Below are positions 8,591 to 42,055 of a stretch of 64,000 bases of DNA, piece after piece (position 1 is the stretch's first letter; each line of letters begins with the position of its first letter). Below the pieces are notes generated by a model that saw only the letters and a program-made list of their open reading frames with translations, was not told the origin of the DNA and did no database searches. Position numbers and translations under genes: made by a program. Source of the stretch: Tetmemena sp. SeJ-2015. Lineage: Eukaryota > Ciliophora > Spirotrichea > Sporadotrichida > Oxytrichidae. Where the stretch lies: the NCBI GenBank assembly GCA_027382625.1, contig JAJKFJ010022765.1:1-64000 (forward strand), in the 5' to 3' direction.

Positions 8591-8956
8591 GGAATAGTTA
8601 AAGTCAGCTGCTACGGTAGTGAGTTAAGATTTAAAGAAACTAGAATAGAAGTCAGTACTTTTATTTAATTATATGTGATGATTATTTCTTTCTATGTGGT
8701 GAGTGAGTTGCTACTTGTGTTATTAGATATGGTTGGTTGCAAATAATTGTTAGGCGAATGTAAAATTGTCTGAAAATTATATCTTAAGTGAGAAAGACGA
8801 GCTGCTTAATTTCCAGTGAGTGGCTTAGTAGGCACCACGGAGAATCTAATAATTAACTAGGCGATTGCTTCCGCCCATTATGTTCATCAAAGACCTCATA
8901 ATAGTCACAAACAAAACCCATTTATGCTTTTCAATAGTCTTGTTAATTGAGGGTGC
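8591..8956. other. Intergenic spacer before the ammonium-transporter cluster
   Basis: No coding signal seen. It ends at the TGA (on the minus strand) of ammonium transporter A. Confidence 0.4.
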
Positions 8957-10483
8957 TCAGAAAATGAAGGCCTCGCCTCTGAGTTCCTTCTTGAGTCCGC
9001 CTTCCTGAGGTCGGTTCTTCTGAGCCTTGGCCTCCTTCTCCTCTCTCAGTTTTCTCTCGAGGTATGCCTCCTCGTCTTCTTCCTCCTCAGCTGCGGTAGA
9101 GTCCAGATTGCTCTTGGCCTTATAGTAATTCTGACAGCCTCTAGGAACTCATCACTCACTCCTCCAAGCTCGGCAACGTCAAATCCGATCTCCTCAATTG
9201 CCTTGTCCACTCTAAGTAGTTTAAGCTTTCTGAGAACGTAGAAGGCAGGGAGGACGATGACTGTGGTCCAAGCAACGATGACAGTGATGCCAACAATTTG
9301 GTAGCCCATGAACTCACCCTAGTGGTAAGCGTTCTTGTAAAGGGCACCCTGGTTGTTGTTGAAGAAGCCTGTGGCGAATAGACCCCACACACCTCCGAGG
9401 GCGTGGACTGGGAACACCTCAAGGGGGTCGTCGATTTGCCAGAAGTCAAGGTAGACGCATCCACCAACGTAGAAGACTGCTGAGATAGAGCCAATTAGCA
9501 CAGCACCCATACAATCTGCAACACCTGCGATGGAGACAAGGCCTATCAGAATGCCATTGCAGAGAGTTAAGCAGTTTGATATGTGATTATTTATGTGCTG
9601 AAGTTTTGGTAAACAATTGGCTTGAGACAGAAGGAAACGGAGTAGTGATGCAAGAGATAAGAGTATTCAAGATAATCTTGGAGGGTGCTCTAGTTCTGGG
9701 AAATACTGTTAATTTTAGTAATTTTAATAACTTTTTCTTTAATTGATTAAATTTCTTTTACCTATTATTTTAGTTCCCCCCCTTTTTAAAAAAAAATTCA
9801 AATTTAGGAAAAATTTGGGTTTTTGCTTATTTATTTTTTTTTAAATTTGTTGTCTATAATTAAACAAATTTCAAGTTGTTTTTAAACCAGTGACTTGAGT
9901 AATAATTGAAAGTTTGTTGGATTGTTTCTTGCCTTTACTTTGGCTTGTCTCTCTCCAACTACGAATGCTCCCCAGAATCCAGTGACTCCGCCCACCAAAT
10001 GAACAATTCCAGTTCCTGCGAAGTCTCTAAATCCTTTGTCATAGAGCCATCCTTGTGCCTGTATGCCAATATAACAGGGTAAACAAATGCTGCCAATAGG
10101 AAGGTCATTACGATATATCCAGCCAGCTGAGTTCTCTCTGCCAGTGCTCCTTGGTAAACAGATACGCAAACTATGGCATAAGCGAACTGAATAACCCACC
10201 ACAGGTAGTGATCGTCAGCCATCAGCTCAAATCCGTAGGAGGAGTACATTTTCTCATTGCTTCCTATGAAGTACATCGCTCTTCCATTATAATACAACTA
10301 GCCAGAATGCAATCACTGTGATAGCCACGTTGAAGAGATTCTCTCAAATACATATACATGGCTTTCTGTTCTTGCGCCTCACTGCTCCACTCTCGATGAG
10401 TTAGAATAATTTTCATTATAGTTTGTTGCATTAGTGCCCTGTTGGGGAGTAGAATACACAGCTTGTGTGTAGTTTCCTTCCAT
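8957..10483 (-). other. AMT-A odd MDS block (9 MDSs)
   Basis: MDS coordinates in reading order: M1 10427-10483, M3 10364-10401, M5 10296-10342, M7 10063-10286, M9 9902-10056, M12 9650-9695, M14 9596-9639, M16 9130-9575, M18 8957-9121. Spacers between them are short (6-31 bp) except 9696-9901, an AT-rich 206-bp IES with a C/A run. Each boundary carries a repeat that recurs at the matching even MDS: GGGCACTAATGCA, ACTCATC, AAGAACAGAA, AGAATCTC, TGGCTAGTT, TGGAAGAGC, TTATATTGGCAT, ACAAGGAT, AATTAT, AACT, TATCTCTTGC, CGTTTCCTT, TTCAGCA, ACTGCTTAA, GAGGCTGTCAGA, AAGGCCAAGA (minus-strand sense, in order). Confidence 0.93.
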
Positions 10484-12046
10484 TTAGGATTTAGTAGTAC
10501 TTAAAAGATTTTATTTATTTTATTTGTTAATCACATTTTAATTTTATTTCCACTCCTGCTTCCTCATGATGAACATTCCATTTAACTTTTCCATCATATT
10601 CAAATTCAAAATTATCTCAATCCATTTATGCAAACAGAGAGAGAAGATAGTTAAAGATAGAGAGAATGTAAATTAAAATCTATTGTGACGATTCTTAGGA
10701 GTCCCAGTCTCTTCAATGATAGTTTTTTGTGACACCAACCCAGGCAACGACACAGACGATGGCAAGGAATCTAGTAGCCAAAGAAAGTGCCCTTGTCAGG
10801 TGAGCCGTAGAAAAGTCCCTTCTGAGTCGAGAAGAATCCAGTGGCGATGGTGCCCCAGACACCTCCGAAGAAGTGCACTGGTGCAGCCTCAACTGGGTCG
10901 TCCACATGAAGCATGTCCAGGATTTTGCAGCCAGCCACGTACCAGAGAGCGCCGATGCAGCCGATAATGAAGGCTGCCCAGGGCTCAACCTGGTCGCAGC
11001 AGCCAGTAATTGACACAAGTCCAATCAAAGCTTTTACTTATTAGATGTGCGCAGTCGTATCTGTTCACGAAGTTGTAGGTTCCTAAAAGTCAATTGATTA
11101 GTTTAATGAGAGAGTATGAGGCATGAAAAGATTGTTAGTGCTTCCTCCGTTGAAGAATAGCCAGGCAACCCACAAGATAAGAGTAAGAAAATAAATATTT
11201 GTACACATTTCTGGTTTGATTGTGGGGTCTGAACTCATTTGCATATAAGATAATCCTTGTTGACATGGTTTATAACCTTCTGATAATGATGTGACAATAA
11301 ATGATTAATTTAAGAGTTATAATTAATTATTTTTCATTTTTAATTATTTTTTGGTCTTGGCCTTGATCTGATCTCTGACAGCCTCAAATAGAATAAGCGT
11401 TTATAATTAAGGATATAAGGAGATGGAGCTTTCTCAGAATATTTATTTATGCTTAATTAGATTAACAGCACCCCAGTTTTAAACAGTATCTGCAACTCTT
11501 AATGTATAGTTATTAAGCAGTCGTATTTAGTTGTCTGCTGAACTATAGTAAGGAAACGAGTCCACTGAAAGCGCAAGAGATAGCTGAATAAGTTTATCCA
11601 CCAGTGAAGAACATATATCCAGTTATAACTATCAGGGTTCCTAGCACAATTCATCATAATAAACTTGAATATAATACTATCCATTTAATTTGAATGAAGG
11701 TGTTGTTATTAGCAACTAAGTCGTTAGAATGCTGTTTCTGGTGCTTTAAAGCAATCTGAGTGGCTTTAAAAAGTGATAATTTTAGGTGCTTTGCGAGGAT
11801 TGTTTCTTTCTTATTGAATTGAGTAGTAGTATTTTATCCTTGTCCCCAGGTCCATGCCAATATAATTTCTATGAGTGCTCTTCCAAAGGCAAAACCATAG
11901 CCAACTAGCCAAAATGAGATAGTATAATAATTTGAGATTCTTGATGAGCATGGTGCTTCTGTTCTTGGGAATTGATGAGTGCGAATCCTGCTGACATGAA
12001 GAATATGAACCCTGCTGATACCAAGATCCATACTGCATTAGTGCCC
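8957..12046 (-). CDS. AMT: Ammonium transporter A (Amt/Mep), odd-even scrambled over two blocks
   Basis: Predicted plasma-membrane ammonium channel of the Amt/Mep/Rh family with 11 TM segments. Reading order alternates between an odd block (8957-10483) and an even block (11355-12046): start ATG at 10483, TGA at 8957-8959. Eighteen MDSs rebuild a protein with [44 protein letters not shown] (first pore His and its Asp), CNGILIGLVSIAG and FPVHALGGVWG (second pore His), and an acidic/basic cytosolic tail. Pointers match at all inter-block junctions, 4-13 bp long. One residual single-base frame slip remains in MDS 15 (11513-11542). Family identity is certain; whether the gene makes protein depends on that slip being an assembly error. 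Confidence 0.93.
10689..11185 (-). other. AMT-B even MDS block (4 MDSs)
   Basis: In reading order: 11126-11185 ([12 protein letters not shown]), 11052-11091 (GTYNFVNR), 10729-11032 ([10 protein letters not shown] to VGVT), 10689-10715 (KRLGLLRI). Pointers to the partner block, minus-strand sense: TACTCTTATC, CAATCTTTT, GACTTTTA, TACGACTG, AGCTTTGATT, GTCAC, TGAAGAGACTG, CTAAGAATCG. Joining at these repeats keeps frame except for one extra base near 10767. Confidence 0.93.
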
Positions 12047-13916
12047 CCCCCCAACAACAATAACAATAAAAAATCTTTAATTATCATTATAAATGTAGTA
12101 TTTATTTAATTTTTGCGTCACCAGCTCAACCTTCTTCTACTCCATGAAGAGACTGAAATTGATAATTAGGTTTATTATTTCTAAGAATCGACAAGGCTAT
12201 CGAAATAATTGGTCTGGACATCGCAGAGATGGGTGGTGTTAGTGAGGACATTTACGAGAAGATGAGAAGAGACTTTGCCAATTCCCTTCCAGGCTCTCCT
12301 CGATAGTTTGCTTCCATGCAAGGAACTAAGGCCCCTGCCGTCAATGTCAACGACTCAGAGAGAAAGCTCTCAATTGACAGAGCTGATCGATGATGAGCCA
12401 CTGACGCTCACAACATTTACTCGCAGTTTAAACTCTGAAAATATTTCAAGTTCAAAAAAAATTGTTTGTCTCTCTATCTTAGTTTATAAAAACAGAGTGA
12501 TCGCGTGAGAAAGAGGGAGCCTCTCTTCTTTAAATGGTATCAACAAAATACTTATCATATGACACACCTATAAATCAAATTTAAACATCTCACACATTTA
12601 TATATCCGAGTTTTCAAGCCGAAGAATATTTATCTCCTTACACTTTATTTTCTCCTCATTTTGTTTTCTTAAAATTGCTTATACGCAAATCAAAGCTCCG
12701 TTACACAAGGCACCACAGTCGTAAGATAGTCTTTAAAAGTCTAGACTTAACGAAAACTGCAACAACTCCACCTGCAGATCCTGAGATGACTGTGTTCATA
12801 ATAATCTTGGCGGGTCCATTAGCTCTTGGCACAAAAAGATTGGATTCCTGATAAGAGTACCAGTGACCACGAAGGTTTGATATCTCCTATAAAGTTAAAC
12901 TCATCGCTTTGGTTGACGAGCCACTCCTTGAATGCCAAGTGATAATCCTTGTGCTGTATGCAAGTAAAGTAAAGTAAAGTAAAATTTAGGGAATATAATT
13001 AATAATCTATTTCAAAACCAGCACTTATTACAGTTCTAGTTGAGAAACATCTTATTATCCTATGTAAGTATGGCGTTAGTTAATATTTTTGTAGGGATAT
13101 TTAGAACTCAGTGGGTGACTACTAGCATTCAAAAATTTCCTACTTTTTATGCTGGGATCGGTCTCCTTGTTTCTTCTGCTTCCAGCTTTTTGTGCTATAT
13201 GCAATATTGATATACCTAGTATGTATAGTTAATGATGTGAGTGCTCTAGATTAACGCTCTATCTTCTCTCCTCTCCGTTTTAACGCTTGGCAAGTCTGTC
13301 CTTCTCCTTGCCGTATCTCTCGCCTAGAATAGCTGCTCCACAGAAACCTGCACATCCTCCCACCAAATGAATGGTAGTCACTCCTGCGAAGTCGTGGAAT
13401 CCTCTTTGCATGAGCCAGCCGCCACCCCAGGTCCAGGCAACTACAACTGGATAGATGAATCCAGTCTACAGGAACGAAAATATGATGTATGTGTTCAGTT
13501 GCGTTCGCTCTGCTAGTGACCCTGACACGATAGTTGCAGAGGTAGATGCGAATGCGAAGTAATTAAATGAGAGTGTGATTAGATTTTTGGAAGTGGAAAA
13601 TCCAGAGAAGGTAGTGATCCTCAGGAGTACTTTCGAAACCGCTTGATGCGAAGTAGTCTGGGCTTCCTCCGATGAATGTCTTGACATCGCCGAATGCGAA
13701 AGCGTAGCCGACCAGCCAGAAGGCAATAGATCCCACGCATGCATCGAATAAATTTTTGATTAGAATGCTTGTTGAGTTCTTGGCTCTGACTGAACCGCAC
13801 TCGAGGAGTGCAAAGCCAGCCTGCATAAAGAAAATCATGGCAGTCGAGACGAGAGTCCACACTGCGTTGATGGCTTCTCGTTCGCTGTATACCGTACTCG
13901 AATATGGTCCCGGCAT
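10689..13916 (-). CDS. AMT: Ammonium transporter B (Amt/Mep), scrambled with inverted MDSs
   Basis: Second Amt paralogue. The N-terminus is a continuous run at 13190-13916 ([10 protein letters not shown]..., [53 protein letters not shown]), interrupted by one IES. Then the order alternates between 12688-12955 and 10689-11185, and finishes with two MDSs on the plus strand at 12117-12438. The rebuilt middle and C-terminus contain [75 protein letters not shown] and [17 protein letters not shown]. Both pore His motifs are present. Unsolved: the junction between LGERYGKEK... and [11 protein letters not shown] near 12.95/13.2 kb, and one extra C near 10767. Confidence 0.92.
11355..12046 (-). other. 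AMT-A even MDS block (9 MDSs)
   Basis: M2 11974-12046, M4 11934-11966, M6 11877-11911, M8 11836-11865, M10 11693-11781, M11 11591-11650, M13 11550-11582, M15 11513-11542, M17 11355-11385. Same orientation and monotonic order as the odd block. M10 and M11 are consecutive, separated by a conventional IES (11651-11695, pointer ATT). M2 starts beside a C run (12044-12052). Translated alone the block looks like a frameshifted pseudogene; joined to the odd block it is coding. Confidence 0.93.
12117..12438 (+). other. AMT-B inverted MDSs (C-terminal)
   Basis: Plus-strand coding although the rest of the gene is on the minus strand. 12117-12155 encodes [13 protein letters not shown] and joins by GTCAC and TGAAGAGACTG to minus-strand MDSs. 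12181-12438 starts exactly with pointer CTAAGAATCG and encodes [17 protein letters not shown] then a Ser-rich tail. A candidate 18-bp IES (12387-12404, pointer CTGA) removes two TGA codons and extends the tail to TGA 12436-12438; otherwise the protein stops at 12391. Confidence 0.9.
12688..12955 (-). other. AMT-B odd MDS block
   Basis: In reading order: about 12892-12950 ([10 protein letters not shown]... NF), IES 12875-12894 (pointer CTT), 12850-12874 (VVTGTLI), 12734-12842 ([14 protein letters not shown]... VKSRLL), 12688-12723 ([11 protein letters not shown]). The spacer between the second and third MDS is only 7 bp (12843-12849). The 36-bp MDS 12688-12723 supplies exactly the residues missing between its two partners at 11052-11091 and 10729-11032. 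Confidence 0.92.
12956..13070. repeat. Dispersed repeat with AAAGT tandem tract
   Basis: Contains AAAGTAAAGTAAAGTAAAAT, CCAGCACTTATT and TTATCCTATGTAAG in the same order as both arms of the large inverted repeat (61270-61370 and its complement near 62150-62260). It lies in a spacer between AMT-B MDSs, so it is probably eliminated DNA. Confidence 0.75.
13561..13594 (-). other. IES in AMT-B, pointer ACTTC (minus sense)
   Basis: GAAGT on the plus strand at 13556-13560 and 13590-13594. Excision joins LLWIFHF to [10 protein letters not shown] in frame. Confidence 0.9.
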
Positions 13917-14050
13917 TATTCCTCACATAAGAATATTATGAATGAGAATAGCAGATTTGAATTGCGTAATATATGAGTGAGTAATGGTTTAAGGGTAGGC
14001 TGTGCTAATAGTAATATTAATTAATATTATTTTATAATTTAGATAGTTAT

Positions 14051-14920
14051 TCAATACACGAGAAAGTTCTCAATTATAAACAATAATCTATCCAAAATTA
14101 TAACATTGACTAATTAATTTGGGAACTGTCCTTAAACTAGTAATATAGCTGGGAATTTAAATAAAAGAGTGTTAATTAATGAGTAAATTAAAATGGATTA
14201 AATGGATGCTAGTTCGACTATAATTTATTTGAATAATATTTACTCTCTGTATATATAAGAATTTTCCGTGCTTCCAGTTTTTATACGGGGGTAACTCAGC
14301 TCCCCAATGTTACAAAAGCTTTTATCGTTCATTATTGCGCGTAATTAAGAAAAGTGATTTTAATTTATAAGGAAAGACTCTACCTATTATATCAAACTAT
14401 ATGTGTTCGTTAGGAGTTTAGTTCTAAGTGTCCTTCTATCTATGAAATGGTACTGTGGTGCCATTCTTGCTTGAGTAGAGCCCATAATGGTTCTATTAGA
14501 TTCAGGGAATAGCAATGGGAGGCAGAAATTTTACTACTCGCAGTGATACAGTATTTTAGCTTGGGACTCTTGTGAATTGAAAGGTTGCTCATGATGATGA
14601 TGATGCTCTTCGGCATTCAAGATATAGTTGGCTAAGCAATACCTCATAGATGACTGGTTGTTGCTCTCGGTAATGGCTTTAATGGGGGAGGGAAATATAT
14701 AAGAGTTATTGGTCGAAGTTGATCTTTTAGCATGCTCTCAAGGGTTTTAATCATACCTATGGCTTTAGACTTGAGCTGAGGTAGAAGCTCATTAAAAACT
14801 GAATAAGTCAAAGTTTTGAAGCTGATATCAAGGGATACAAGAAATTAAAACTGATAAAAGGGAGATTCTAAAGTCATCCTATCTTCTTTAGCGTGATCTG
14901 AAGTGTGTCTCGACATCCAT
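14051..14920 (-). CDS. Unknown protein, His-run and Gln-rich
   Basis: Reading TAA/TAG as Gln, the minus strand is open from ATG 14920 (MDVETHFRSRQRRQDDFR) to TGA 14051-14053 with two breaks. The first is fixed by a tiny IES candidate (pointer ATC, 10 bp, near 14835), the second is one base at a C run near 14690 and may be a sequencing error. Recognisable features: an HHHHH run, PLLFPESNRTIMGSTQARM and a basic segment. The last third (below about 14300) is low-complexity and may not be coding. No family recognised. Confidence 0.5.
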
Positions 14921-15396: not shown

Positions 15397-17440
15397 TCAA
15401 ACTATACTACTTAATGCCGAATGGAATTAATAATCAGAGCTAGTCTAAACTTACACAATAAACCTCATTGCATAAATTTATTTCTGATGGTTTATATCAA
15501 ATCTGCCAGTTTCGTGCTTTGCCCCCAGTCCTTTTCCATAGACTACCTTAGGAATTATAAGACTGTCATCTTCTCCACTCAGGTCGTTCCTATTTAGGCT
15601 ATTTCTTAGGTTTATTGTGTTGTCATTCATCTTTTGGAAAGAGCTCTTCACCATACTACGCTTCTGATTGAAAGAGGCAACAGCTGAGGCTCCTGGAGAT
15701 AAGAAGCCGAAGTCCTTCCTCAGTTTTTGATACACTTCATCAGGTACTCCTCCTAGCTCAGAGATAAACCAATGACTCTATTCATTTGGAATTTAAATCG
15801 TGTTTGCGATTTATCAAGTCCGATAACTTCTATCTCCTTGGGCACTCTTAAAAGATTTAGTTTCTTCATTAGTAAGAAGAAAGGAAGAGTTATTGCAGTC
15901 ACCCAAGTAGCTATAGCAACAGCTCCTAGCAGCTGAAGTCCGAGCTGCTTAATGCCTACAGAGGGATTGTAGAACAAGCCTTTCTCAGTGTTAAAGAAGC
16001 CTACTGCCATCACTCCCCAAAATCCTCCTGAAGTGTGGACAGCTGAGGCCTCCAGAGGATCGTCAATGTGGAACTTGTCAAGCAGTCTGCATCCGATTGA
16101 ATAGAACAGAGAACCAACAGTGCCCACAATAAAGGCTGACCAGACCTTCGATTTAATCGCAAGAGGCAGTACAAGAAACGAGTCCTACAATAATTCCGTT
16201 GCAAATTGTGCCTGGGTCATATTGGGAAACGAAAGAGTAGGTTCCAGTTATTCTAGGCTTGAAAAAAACTGCAAAGAGTCCACCAGCTGCAGCTGATATC
16301 ACGTTAATCATGATAACTTTAGCAGGACCATTTTTTCTCTCAGTGAACATGAGAGCACTACCCCCATTGAAAAATAGCCAGCATACCCAAAGGAGTAAAG
16401 TTCCTGTCACAATTAGCCACAAAAAAAGATGAATAGTAAATTAGTGCTGGGTTGTGAGCTTTGAATTCTGGCTGTTAAACAGAAATCCACTCCTTAAATG
16501 CCTCTTAATAGTCTCCTTTCACATGCTTAAGAACTTCATTAAATTCATGGTCATCCCACTTTATGCTGTTTCTTCCTGCCACTCCTACATAATGATCTAC
16601 ATCCTTCAATCTGTTCTCCTTTCTTCATTGCCTCTTAGATTCATAACATTTTTATAAGCTTGATTTAATTAATATTTGATTCTCCTGATTCTGTCTTTTC
16701 CATATCTCTCACCAAGAGTTCTTGCTCCCCAAATGGCGCACACTCCACCAACTAAGTGGACCACACCTGAGCCTGCAAAGTCAAGGAACCCAAGATCCTT
16801 AAGCCATCCATATCCGTGAGATGTGTCAGCCCAAATCCAAGCGCACACCACTGGGTATATAAAGCTGGTCATGAAATAATTTAAGAGATGAAGAAGGAGA
16901 AGCAAAGGTAAGTAGCCAACTAGCAGCGCTCTGCCAGAGCTCCAGAGACGATAGTAGCTGAAGTTGCTGCAAACGAGTACTGGAAAATCCACCACTTGTA
17001 GTTATCATCAGGTAGGTCTTAGAAATCATTCGAGACGAAGTACTATTTTCCAAAGCCCATAAATCCGTGCACATAAAATGAAGAGCTAAAATAAATGTAT
17101 GAACTTGAACATCTCCGAAGGCGAATGCATATCCCACAAGCCAATAACCGATACATCCAATTGCAGAGTCACACAAATTCTTGATAAGGATGCTCTATGA
17201 ATTCTTTTGTCTCACACTTCCTACTTCGACTAGTGCGAAGCCACTCTGCATGAAGAAGATCATGGCTGTTGCCACCAGGGTCCATACGATTTCTACTGCA
17301 AAACTTTAATAACTTTAATTTTATGTTAATGCATCCTTGGTGCTGTAAACTTGCTATTCAGGCCCCACCAAGTTGTCATATTGCTCAAACTGTCTATTCA
17401 CATTCGATGCTTAAAAAGATAAAGTAATTAGCAGATGCAT
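15397..17440 (-). CDS. AMT: Ammonium transporter C (Amt/Mep), not scrambled
   Basis: Third Amt paralogue, collinear on the minus strand from ATG 17440 to TGA 15397-15399 (TAA codons near 15478 read as Gln). Motifs: FWL-like [105 protein letters not shown], and a long cytosolic tail with [10 protein letters not shown]. At least four IESs were solved (pointers TGCA, ATGT, TTCAT, CTAATT in minus sense). Two further breaks, near 16560-16680 and 15745-15800, look like IESs but I could not fix their pointers. One extra base lies at about 16145. It gives the collinear comparison for the scrambled paralogues next door. Confidence 0.93.
16417..16444 (-). other. IES, pointer CTAATT (minus sense)
   Basis: AATTAG on the plus strand at 16411-16416 and 16439-16444. 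Excision joins FKAHNPALI to VTGTLLLW in frame. Confidence 0.92.
16876..16892 (-). other. 17-bp IES, pointer TTCAT (minus sense)
   Basis: ATGAA on the plus strand at 16871-16875 and 16888-16892. Excision joins LCFSFF to MTSFIYPVV in frame and avoids TGA. Confidence 0.85.
17075..17112 (-). other. IES, pointer ATGT (minus sense)
   Basis: ACAT on the plus strand at 17071-17074 and 17109-17112. Excision joins AFAFGDV to HGFMGFG in frame. Confidence 0.92.
17301..17333 (-). other. IES, pointer TGCA
   Basis: TGCA at 17297-17300 and 17330-17333. Excision joins VYSTKDA to [12 protein letters not shown] in frame. Confidence 0.92.
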
Positions 17441-39796: not shown

Positions 39797-40870
39797 ACCA
39801 CACCCTTTCTAATCACAGTAATCGCTATTTAAACTTCCTATATAAGCTAAGAGTATTTATAAAAAAAAAGTTGGGTTTTTAAAAGAAATTTTCCTTTTTA
39901 AAAATTAAATTTTAATTCATTCTTTTATTTGTAAATATTTGATGATTTGTGTGCAATATAAATAGAAGGAAATGAGGAGTGATGGTCCTTGTCCCCTGGA
40001 TAACTGTTGTGAGAGAGCAAGAGTTAGGAGAGGGGAGGAACTCTTAGTTAGTTAGTTAATGTTTGGAATTTTTAAATATTTAAAACCTTTAATTTTAAAA
40101 AAAAAATAACATTTTTAAAATAAATTTTTTTCTTCAAAATTTTTAAAATTTTTGTTTGAGTGAAAAATTTTTTAAATTTTTTTTTTGTTTTCATAAATTT
40201 ATTTGTAGTTAAAATTTAAAAATTTTTAAAACCCCCTTTTTGATTGGGCTTTGAGCATTCCACTTAGTGAAGCCTGGGCTTAACAGTCAGTGGTTGCAGC
40301 TCTAATAAATACTTCTCCTTCATTTATAATTAATTATTATCTTCTCCTCATCCCACATCTCATCTATACTCCTCATCTGAATCATAAATTGATTTCATTG
40401 CTTTCTATTTCTAGAAAGTGGTAGTAGAAATAGTATCTGAAATTCAAGAAGCGAAGGAAAAGATTTCCTCCTGATTGCTTTTTCTAGATATTTCTGAGTG
40501 AGGCCTAAGAATATAAGAATGATCTAAGAAGAAGATTATTAAGATTATAAAACTTACAATCATTATTATTGTTCGAGAATCTTTTAACTTAAAGTAAGTC
40601 TTAGAAAAGCCATAAACAATCATCTTCTTATCATCTTTCTGAACCTATTTTGAAATATTAACATGTCTTCATGAGCTAAACTATTTCAATCCTAAACAAA
40701 CACATAATCTAAAGCCTGATTCTAAACTATGAAGGGGCGGATTTGACCCTACTTTACTGATTTTGATTGTCTTGAAATTTTGAAAAGATGGATAATCTGT
40801 TGAAAATGGAATTCATCATTTCTAATACGCTCATTACTCTAAAGAATGAAACTTTATTGTGAGTATAGAT
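39797..40870. other. AT-rich spacer
   Basis: Long A/T runs; 40080-40230 is nearly pure poly-A/T and interrupted only by single bases. No gene seen. Confidence 0.5.
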
Positions 40871-42055
40871 ATGGCAACACAGAGGAAAGGATTGTTTTCA
40901 GCATTCGCTGACGATGAAGATGAAAACCAACCAAACCAAAACTTACAGCAAAAGGCCACTCAGAAGAAGTAGACATCTGCTGCTGCTCAGGCCAAACCTT
41001 AGCAAGAACAAAAGCCAAAGACGGCAGCAAAGCCAATGAAGCAAGAGGAACTTGCTGGATTCGAAGCTGTTACCGCAACTGAAAAGACAAGAGGAGGAGA
41101 GCAAAGAGGTGGCCGTGGAGGCTACAGAGGTAGTAGAGGAGGTGCCAGAGGAGGACGCGGTGAAAGAAGAGAAGGTGGCGAAGGTGAAAGAGGTGGATTC
41201 AGAGGTGGTAGAGGAGGAAGAGGTGAGAGAAGAGAAGGTGAAGAAGGTGGAGCTGAGGGCGGCTACAGGGGAAGAGGAAGAGGTAGAGGTGGGCCAAGAC
41301 CTCAAGCAGCCACAGAGGGTGGAGCCGAAGGAGATGAGGGAGTTCTGATCTAGGACAGGAAAGAGAAGGTTGACAACCAGGGCAAGACTGAGCATTTCGA
41401 AGGCAAGAGAAGAGAACAGTGGCACCCTCTTGACAGAAGATCTGGCACCGGTCGAGGCAAGAGAGATCTTCCCAAGGAAGGCTTTGGTAAAGGTAACTGG
41501 GGCAGACCTGAGGATGAGGCGAAGCAAGCAGTGACCGGAGATGAGACAGCTTTGCCAGAGGAGAAGAAGGCAGATACTGAACAAGTGAAGTAAAATCATC
41601 TATTATTTCTTACTGCTCAGGTTGAAGTGACTGAATAGCATGTTGAGGAGAAGTAAATCGCTTAGCAAGTTGAGGAGGAAGAGGAGAAAGGTGGCCTCAC
41701 TCTTCAAGAGTATCTCGCATAGAAAAAGACGGCAGGCATTCGCAAGGAAGCCAGAAAGGCTGAAGAGGTCAAGAAACCTGGCCTTGAAAGAGTCGAGAAG
41801 CAAGGGGATAGAATCCAGCCCATCACGAACATCATCAAGGATAGCGAGACATACTCCATCACAAAGTCACAGGGAGCAGATCTCCTTGGATTTTAAGCTG
41901 GAGAGGAAGACCAAATAAGAGAGGAGAGGTCTTACAGAGGTGGTGCTAGAGGCAGCCGAGGAAGCAGAGGCGGCGCAAGAGGAGGAGCAAGAGGTGGCCA
42001 GAGAAATGGCGGAGAGTTGAAAGTGGACGCTGAGGAGTTCCCTTCACTTGCCTGA
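40871..42055 (+). CDS. SERBP1/HABP4/Stm1-like ribosome-associated RNA-binding protein
   Basis: ATG 40871 (MATQRKGLFSAFADDED), a Gln/Lys-rich stretch, a long RGG/RG box (RGGYRGSRGGARGGRG and on), then the HABP4/PAI-RBP1 core WHPLDRRSGTGRGKRDLPKE followed by GFGKGNWGRPEDE, a Glu-rich linker, a second conserved block GGLTLQEYLAQKK, a second RG box and the end VDAEEFPSL, TGA 42053-42055. Members bind ribosomes and mRNA and stabilise idle 80S. One IES at 41589-41630 (pointer AAGTGA). The opposite strand and the other plus frame of the RG box stay open only because of its biased composition. Confidence 0.9.
41589..41630 (+). other. IES, pointer AAGTGA
   Basis: AAGTGA at 41583-41588 and 41625-41630. 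Length 42 nt, in frame with no stop, so the call rests on the pointer and on the hydrophobic insert it would otherwise add to an acidic linker. Confidence 0.6.

Follow-up and report, generated by a model that had tools for sequence, protein, structure and literature searches.

Germline loci in which segments of different genes are intermixed are known from the ciliate Oxytricha trifallax, where interleaved and nested ("Russian doll") loci have been described; 387 somatic contigs are interleaved only, and 70% of these are scrambled (PMC5940158). The same account reports two paralogous scrambled chromosomes that come from a 77-kb germline tandem duplication, as well as an ammonium transporter gene, Contig7885.0, with 46 macronuclear-destined segments (MDSs) and 39 scrambled pointers (PMC5940158, Table 3), and it names the question of how nested, highly scrambled germline patterns arise as an open one. 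Scrambling through local duplication and decay is a published model (PMC9797194), in which odd and even clusters represent two copies decaying in complementary places (the model of Gao et al. 2015, as told in PMC9797194). Here we describe a locus of Tetmemena sp. SeJ-2015 (contig JAJKFJ010022765.1, positions 8957 to 13916) in which two paralogous ammonium transporter genes, A and B, are both scrambled and are interleaved block by block. The stretch that we analyzed, hereafter the window, comprises bases 1-64000 of this 84-kb contig, which belongs to a draft assembly of 146 Mb in 5213 contigs.

The sequenced DNA is very likely germline DNA of a hypotrich ciliate, given that TAA and TAG are read as glutamine in the open frames, that the G4T4 telomere word is enriched (263 forward and 232 reverse occurrences, against 58 and 32 in the control) and that gene A has an orthologue in Stylonychia lemnae (P0007, 73.6% aligned identity). 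Gene B has 65.6% aligned identity to its orthologue P0001, and both orthologues are collinear proteins. Both genes match the ammonium transporter family PF00909 (A: 289 bits, E = 6.6e-86; B: 341 bits, E = 1e-101; Pfam gathering cut-off 23.2). A third, collinear ammonium transporter gene, C, lies nearby on the minus strand (about 15634-17365, hand-curated, six internal eliminated sequences, or IESs).

To map A and B, we aligned the region 8601-14400 to reference proteins on both strands, leaving the order of segments free and permitting jumps only between repeated words. The references were P0007 for gene A and P0001 for gene B, the first 26 residues of the latter being taken from gene B itself. 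A shared word at every junction is thus built into the method, and the control is the score against decoys: the free alignments scored 1697 (A) and 1585 (B), and seven decoys, consisting of two reversed proteins, three shuffles and two other stretches of the window, scored 215-323. The map was curated by hand after these free runs, with reassignments made by longer pointers. The free runs had placed chance matches, some of them drawn from B DNA, at residues 195-226 and 298-310 of A, and they had overlooked the tiny MDS13 of B; the first B run had also taken in an A stretch, which was absent from a later run.

Gene A comprises 20 MDSs and 19 junctions, with segments of an odd and an even cluster alternating along the protein. 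The odd cluster (MDS 1, 3, 5, 7, 9, 12, 14, 16, 18 and 20) occupies 8957-10483 on the minus strand, with the ATG at 10481-10483 and the TGA at 8957-8959, and the even cluster (MDS 2, 4, 6, 8, 10, 11, 13, 15, 17 and 19) occupies 11355-12046 on the same strand. MDS10 and MDS11 are joined locally across a 45-nt step with the pointer ATT. Examples of A pointers are GGGCACTAATGCA, CAAGAACAGAA, TTATATTGGCAT and GAGGCTGTCAGA; the pointer of scrambled junction 11 is only 3 nt long (CAG). Gene B comprises 14 MDSs and 13 junctions. Its even cluster (MDS 3, 5, 7, 9, 11 and 13) lies at 10689-11294 on the minus strand, between the two clusters of A, and its odd cluster (MDS 1, 2, 4, 6, 8 and 10; minus strand, ATG at 13914-13916) lies at 12688-13916, so that the even cluster of A stands between the even and odd clusters of B. 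MDS1 and MDS2 of B are separated by a local IES with the pointer ACTTC. The remaining part of the odd cluster, MDS 12 and 14, is inverted (12117-12438, plus strand, stop codon TGA at 12391-12393) and is tied by the pointers GTCAC, TGAAGAGACTG and CTAAGAATCG to 10729-10733, 10705-10715 and 10689-10698, respectively.

Overall, 30 of the 32 junctions are scrambled. Pointers are 3-13 nt long (median 9), and 23 of the 32 pointer words are present exactly twice in 8900-14000 when both strands are counted. The retained DNA amounts to 3385 of 4960 nt and has a G+C content of 47.3%, compared with 24.8% in the eliminated DNA, a property that the mapping did not use. No nucleotide (0) is used by both A and B. 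A preliminary description made from the letters of this DNA had proposed that two homologous genes, both scrambled, alternate here in blocks, and the order-free alignment recovered the same blocks; our map also agrees with that description in placing segments of either gene within long stretches that are eliminated from the other. The block order was as described there, except that the even cluster of B reaches 11294 and not 11185, MDS3 and MDS5 having been overlooked. Single-base frame offsets occur in A (two, compensating), B (one) and C (two). Draft-assembly errors are their simplest reading because an intact metagenomic protein matches C at 94% identity, and lesions are also possible.

How did this arrangement arise? 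We judge it on balance probable that the four alternating blocks go back to a B-A gene pair that was duplicated once in tandem and whose two copies then lost complementary pieces. Read on the minus strand, the order is B2-A2-B1-A1. In each half the pieces of B precede those of A, with order and orientation alike in the two halves except for the one inverted part of B, and no mapped piece of either protein is missing or present twice when the halves are taken together. A single tandem duplication yields the A1-B1-A2-B2 order of the forward strand, and the orientation, without moves. Under this proposal, duplication of the pair would have produced copy 1 (8957-11294), now represented by the odd cluster of A and the even cluster of B, and copy 2 (11355-13916), now represented by the even cluster of A and the odd cluster of B. 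Each copy would then have lost the pieces that the other kept, and both genes would have become scrambled and interleaved by one event, with decay rather than transposition as the presumed maker of the pattern. In the developing somatic nucleus, the pieces would be joined under the guidance of RNA from the old nucleus, and A and B would end on separate small chromosomes.

Complementary loss may leave traces in the eliminated DNA, and we searched the segments that each copy would have exchanged for an MDS of the other. The eliminated segment of the even cluster of A that is exchanged for MDS18 (11386-11464, minus strand) reads ILRKLHLL, where the Stylonychia protein has VLRKLHLL and A has VLRKLKLL. 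Among 28 directed tests this match had p = 0.0008 against the Stylonychia segment and p = 0.0022 for DNA, and it was the top score when windows sampled from the coding sequences of all three genes, A, B and C, were compared. We consider 11386-11464 a probable relic of A-MDS18, which supports an origin by duplication and loss. A second segment, exchanged for B-MDS13 (12156-12180, plus strand), had p = 0.0055 against its own segment and 0.68 against the orthologue segment, and is a weak, possible relic of B-MDS13; the IES exchanged for A-MDS4 gave p = 0.018 against the orthologue segment and 0.86 against its own. For the 14 pairs whose IES is at least 19 nt long, comparison of IESs with their matched orthologue segments gave a Fisher p of 0.019, and values of 0.16-0.74 were obtained from five mismatched controls. 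The stretch 10484-10688 was suspected of holding a relic of B-MDS14, a reading that we discarded (DNA p = 0.30). Lengths were compared as well. The MDS10-11 block of A is exchanged for an eliminated segment (9709-9918, minus strand) of 210 nt, which is also the germline length of the block itself (11587-11796), and sequence similarity between the two is gone (p = 0.6). With this block included, MDS length and the length of the replaced IES are correlated in A (rho = 0.58, p = 0.016, n = 17); with it left out, rho is 0.49 (p = 0.052, n = 16). Adjusted lengths for both genes, with the repeat insertion described below and the inversion set aside and the 210/210 block added, gave rho = 0.39 (p = 0.042, n = 28), these adjustments having been chosen after seeing the data.

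Several results weigh against an origin by duplication and loss. The MDS18 match had p = 0.05-0.06 against the corresponding segment of A's own protein, and in an undirected scan of 144 tests it ranked only sixth by z-score; with full-length proteins as the comparison, p was 0.007 for Stylonychia and 0.16 for A. Compared with their own segments, the same 14 IES pairs gave a Fisher p of 0.45, and DNA similarity between MDSs and IESs across 27 pairs was not significant (p = 0.15). The relic evidence therefore comes mostly from A and depends on the orthologue, and that from B is thin. MDS and IES lengths were uncorrelated in B (rho = 0.03) and not significantly correlated over all raw pairs (rho = 0.31, p = 0.12, n = 27). 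The spacers of the two halves showed no clear similarity, the lowest p being 0.03 in ten uncorrected comparisons, and the 60-nt spacer 11295-11354, where B-MDS1-2 would be expected in copy 1, showed no trace of it (p = 0.69).

The relationship between A and B bears on both the age of the two genes and the question of cross-joining. The two genes are 45.5% identical in amino acids and 54% in nucleotides over aligned codons. A tree of 28 proteins joins A with the Stylonychia protein (99/97) and C with P0016 (99/98), and groups B with P0001 and P0002 (91/89), the inner order of that group being unresolved. Since A pairs with Stylonychia, A and B are, by this tree, old paralogues that separated before the split between A and its Stylonychia counterpart. 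At homologous codons, two junction pairs overlap (2 of 19, against 2.45 expected, p = 0.73). This comparison, which the preliminary description had called for, puts coincidence at the level of chance and fits independent decay of each gene; scrambling that preceded the separation of A and B, which we also considered, is unsupported by it.

The preliminary description had further supposed that weaving two homologous genes together confronts the guide system with a special risk of joining A to B, and that differing pointer words may avert it. Neither idea was supported when we compared the two coding sequences. The longest exact word common to them is 13 nt, and any 27-mer taken from one gene, those centered on junctions included, differs from the other gene at five or more positions; on this evidence the interleaving creates no obvious risk of cross-joining. 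To judge from these sequences, guides in the form of long templates or of 27-nt RNAs would be able to distinguish A from B everywhere, and we infer from the known biology of Oxytricha that such RNA guides act at the locus. Pointers at equivalent positions do differ in the two overlapping pairs, as had been stated, but in one of these pairs the word used by B, TACGACTG, also occurs in A at the site. Moreover, of the 28 pointers that are 7 nt or longer, 4 turn up again in the coding sequence of the other gene (1.19 expected, p = 0.022): A8 recurs within B3, and B4, B6 and B9 recur in A. Pointer A8 (ACAAGGAT, 10049-10056, minus strand, with its other copy at 11836-11843) is contained whole in pointer B3 (ACAAGGATTATC, 11249-11260 and 12941-12952). 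Pointer words by themselves are, on these counts, ambiguous between A and B. At the length of a 27-nt RNA the two genes are everywhere distinct, while pointers alone are ambiguous, and this limits what guides have to achieve.

We weighed three other explanations of the layout. A and B might share a somatic chromosome that carries two genes, with B ahead of A, in which case the locus would be a single plain odd-even locus of 34 segments and the interleaving mere counting. The pieces, numbered B1-B14 and then A1-A20, indeed form a two-cluster odd-even pattern that alternates across the gene boundary, and a 12-nt word, TCTCTCTATCTT, occurs both beyond the stop codon of B (12469-12480, plus strand) and upstream of A (10654-10665, minus strand), where it might serve as a linking pointer (p = 0.01 by shuffling, 0.010 against other pairs in the window). 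However, this word is a low-complexity pyrimidine run, and contigs carrying orthologues of A and B (P0007, P0121-P0125, P0001 and P0002) reach lengths of 1.5-2.1 kb at most, below the size of two such genes, though some are perhaps partial; we regard a shared chromosome as unlikely. It is also conceivable, if quite improbable, that A and B were scrambled separately and that their even clusters were later carried into each other by translocation or by microhomology-driven recombination. The independence of A and B junctions is in keeping with such a history, as is the recurrence of pointers across genes, given that three of the four recurring pointers overlap a pointer of the other gene. Yet separate scrambling requires extra moves that happen to preserve order and strand, and it does not predict the MDS18 relic.

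Finally, the arrangement could be an artefact in which two separate loci were joined chimerically. The assembly is a draft of many contigs, A, B and C carry single-base offsets, and a second copy of the locus that would confirm the layout was not seen among the 40 of 1199 candidates scored. An artefact would nonetheless require three chimeric joins within one 84-kb contig, each falling exactly in a spacer between blocks, and we find this highly improbable. An ancestral B-A pair duplicated in tandem, with opposite pieces then lost from each copy, is the best-supported origin.

The setting of the transporter family is in line with tandem duplication. Gene C is adjacent to the locus (94.4% identity to P0016, a metagenomic protein, over 393 residues), and three contigs (C3810, C523 and C2954) each carry three tandem transporter copies, the first on C2954 being partly seen; together these suggest a family given to local duplication, which supports the proposed origin. 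Ten contigs besides that of the locus had transporter matches, nine of them in protein order, including three in which the matches form three successive runs. With part of these ten contigs mapped, A and B appear to be the sole clearly scrambled members seen in this duplication-prone family. The triplets at L039, L040 and L044 consist of three tandem, apparently collinear transporter genes per contig and are alike between contigs, so that they are perhaps haplotypes or recent duplications. At L045, on contig C3285, transporter matches are out of protein order, and this contig may contain two genes or another scrambled gene. We also asked about the IES positions of relatives. The IESs of C overlap A junctions at 4 of 6 sites (p = 0.002 for overlap, rising to 0.037 with a tolerance of 3 nt and to 0.074 with one of 6 nt), one of these sites lying in a poorly aligning loop, and overlap B junctions at none (0 of 6); 25 merged IES sites drawn from a further seven transporter genes show no more coincidence with the junctions of A or B than chance would give. 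The idea that scrambled junctions arose at old IES sites was set aside.

The longest IES of B contains a SINE-like (short interspersed nuclear element) dispersed repeat of 230 nt (12962-13191). One of its ends resembles (CTTTA)n, and on either side stands an 11-nt direct repeat (12951-12961 and 13192-13202), the two copies differing at one position. Among the 40 of 1199 candidates scored, at least 39 other places match this stretch. We inspected the flanks of nine copies: L050, L051 and L053 have 8-nt direct repeats, and those of L056 and L057 are longer. Searches of Rfam with the window and with the 230-nt repeat gave nothing credible, and a tRNA search reported none. Elsewhere in the window, an open frame at 52506-53561 matches DHFR and thymidylate synthase and is apparently a bifunctional gene, and an open frame at 40850-42055 has a HABP4/PAI-RBP1 domain match and overlaps a 63-nt tandem repeat (41126-41278).

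Taken more broadly, we see an even chance that one two-gene duplication scrambled and interleaved neighboring paralogues at once. Interleaved hypotrich loci would in that case largely be footprints of multi-gene duplications and not of insertions of one gene into another, and scrambling would act on segments rather than on genes. The locus thereby suggests a simple way in which nested and highly scrambled layouts could arise, without an insertion step, and one that makes predictions on layout, relics and relatives.

The locus resembles the interleaved loci of O. trifallax in that segments of each gene lie inside eliminated stretches of the other; unlike here, where both genes are ammonium transporters, the portions of that account considered here name no interleaved pair as paralogous (PMC5940158). 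With the 77-kb duplication pair it shares scrambled paralogues and, as proposed here, a germline tandem duplication, but both copies of that pair have the same rearrangement pattern and an interleaving depth of 0, whereas the copies here would keep complementary pieces (PMC5940158). Contig7885.0 is likewise a heavily scrambled member of the ammonium transporter family, with an interleaving depth of 0 and a place among loci that are not reducible to odd-even patterns (PMC5940158). Paralogues that share MDSs through alternative processing also involve local duplication and overlapping germline loci (PMC4684698); in contrast, A and B have no nucleotide in common and their junctions are not conserved between them. 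The search of the open-licence literature (titles and beginnings of abstracts) turned up no paralogous genes that are interleaved and yet have no segments in common. Interleaving of loci and scrambling of ammonium transporters are each known, and an interleaved pair of paralogues that share no segment appears to be new. As in the model of duplication and decay, odd and even clusters would come from two copies decaying complementarily, but the unit proposed here is a gene pair, from which one event would give rise to two scrambled, interleaved genes (PMC9797194).

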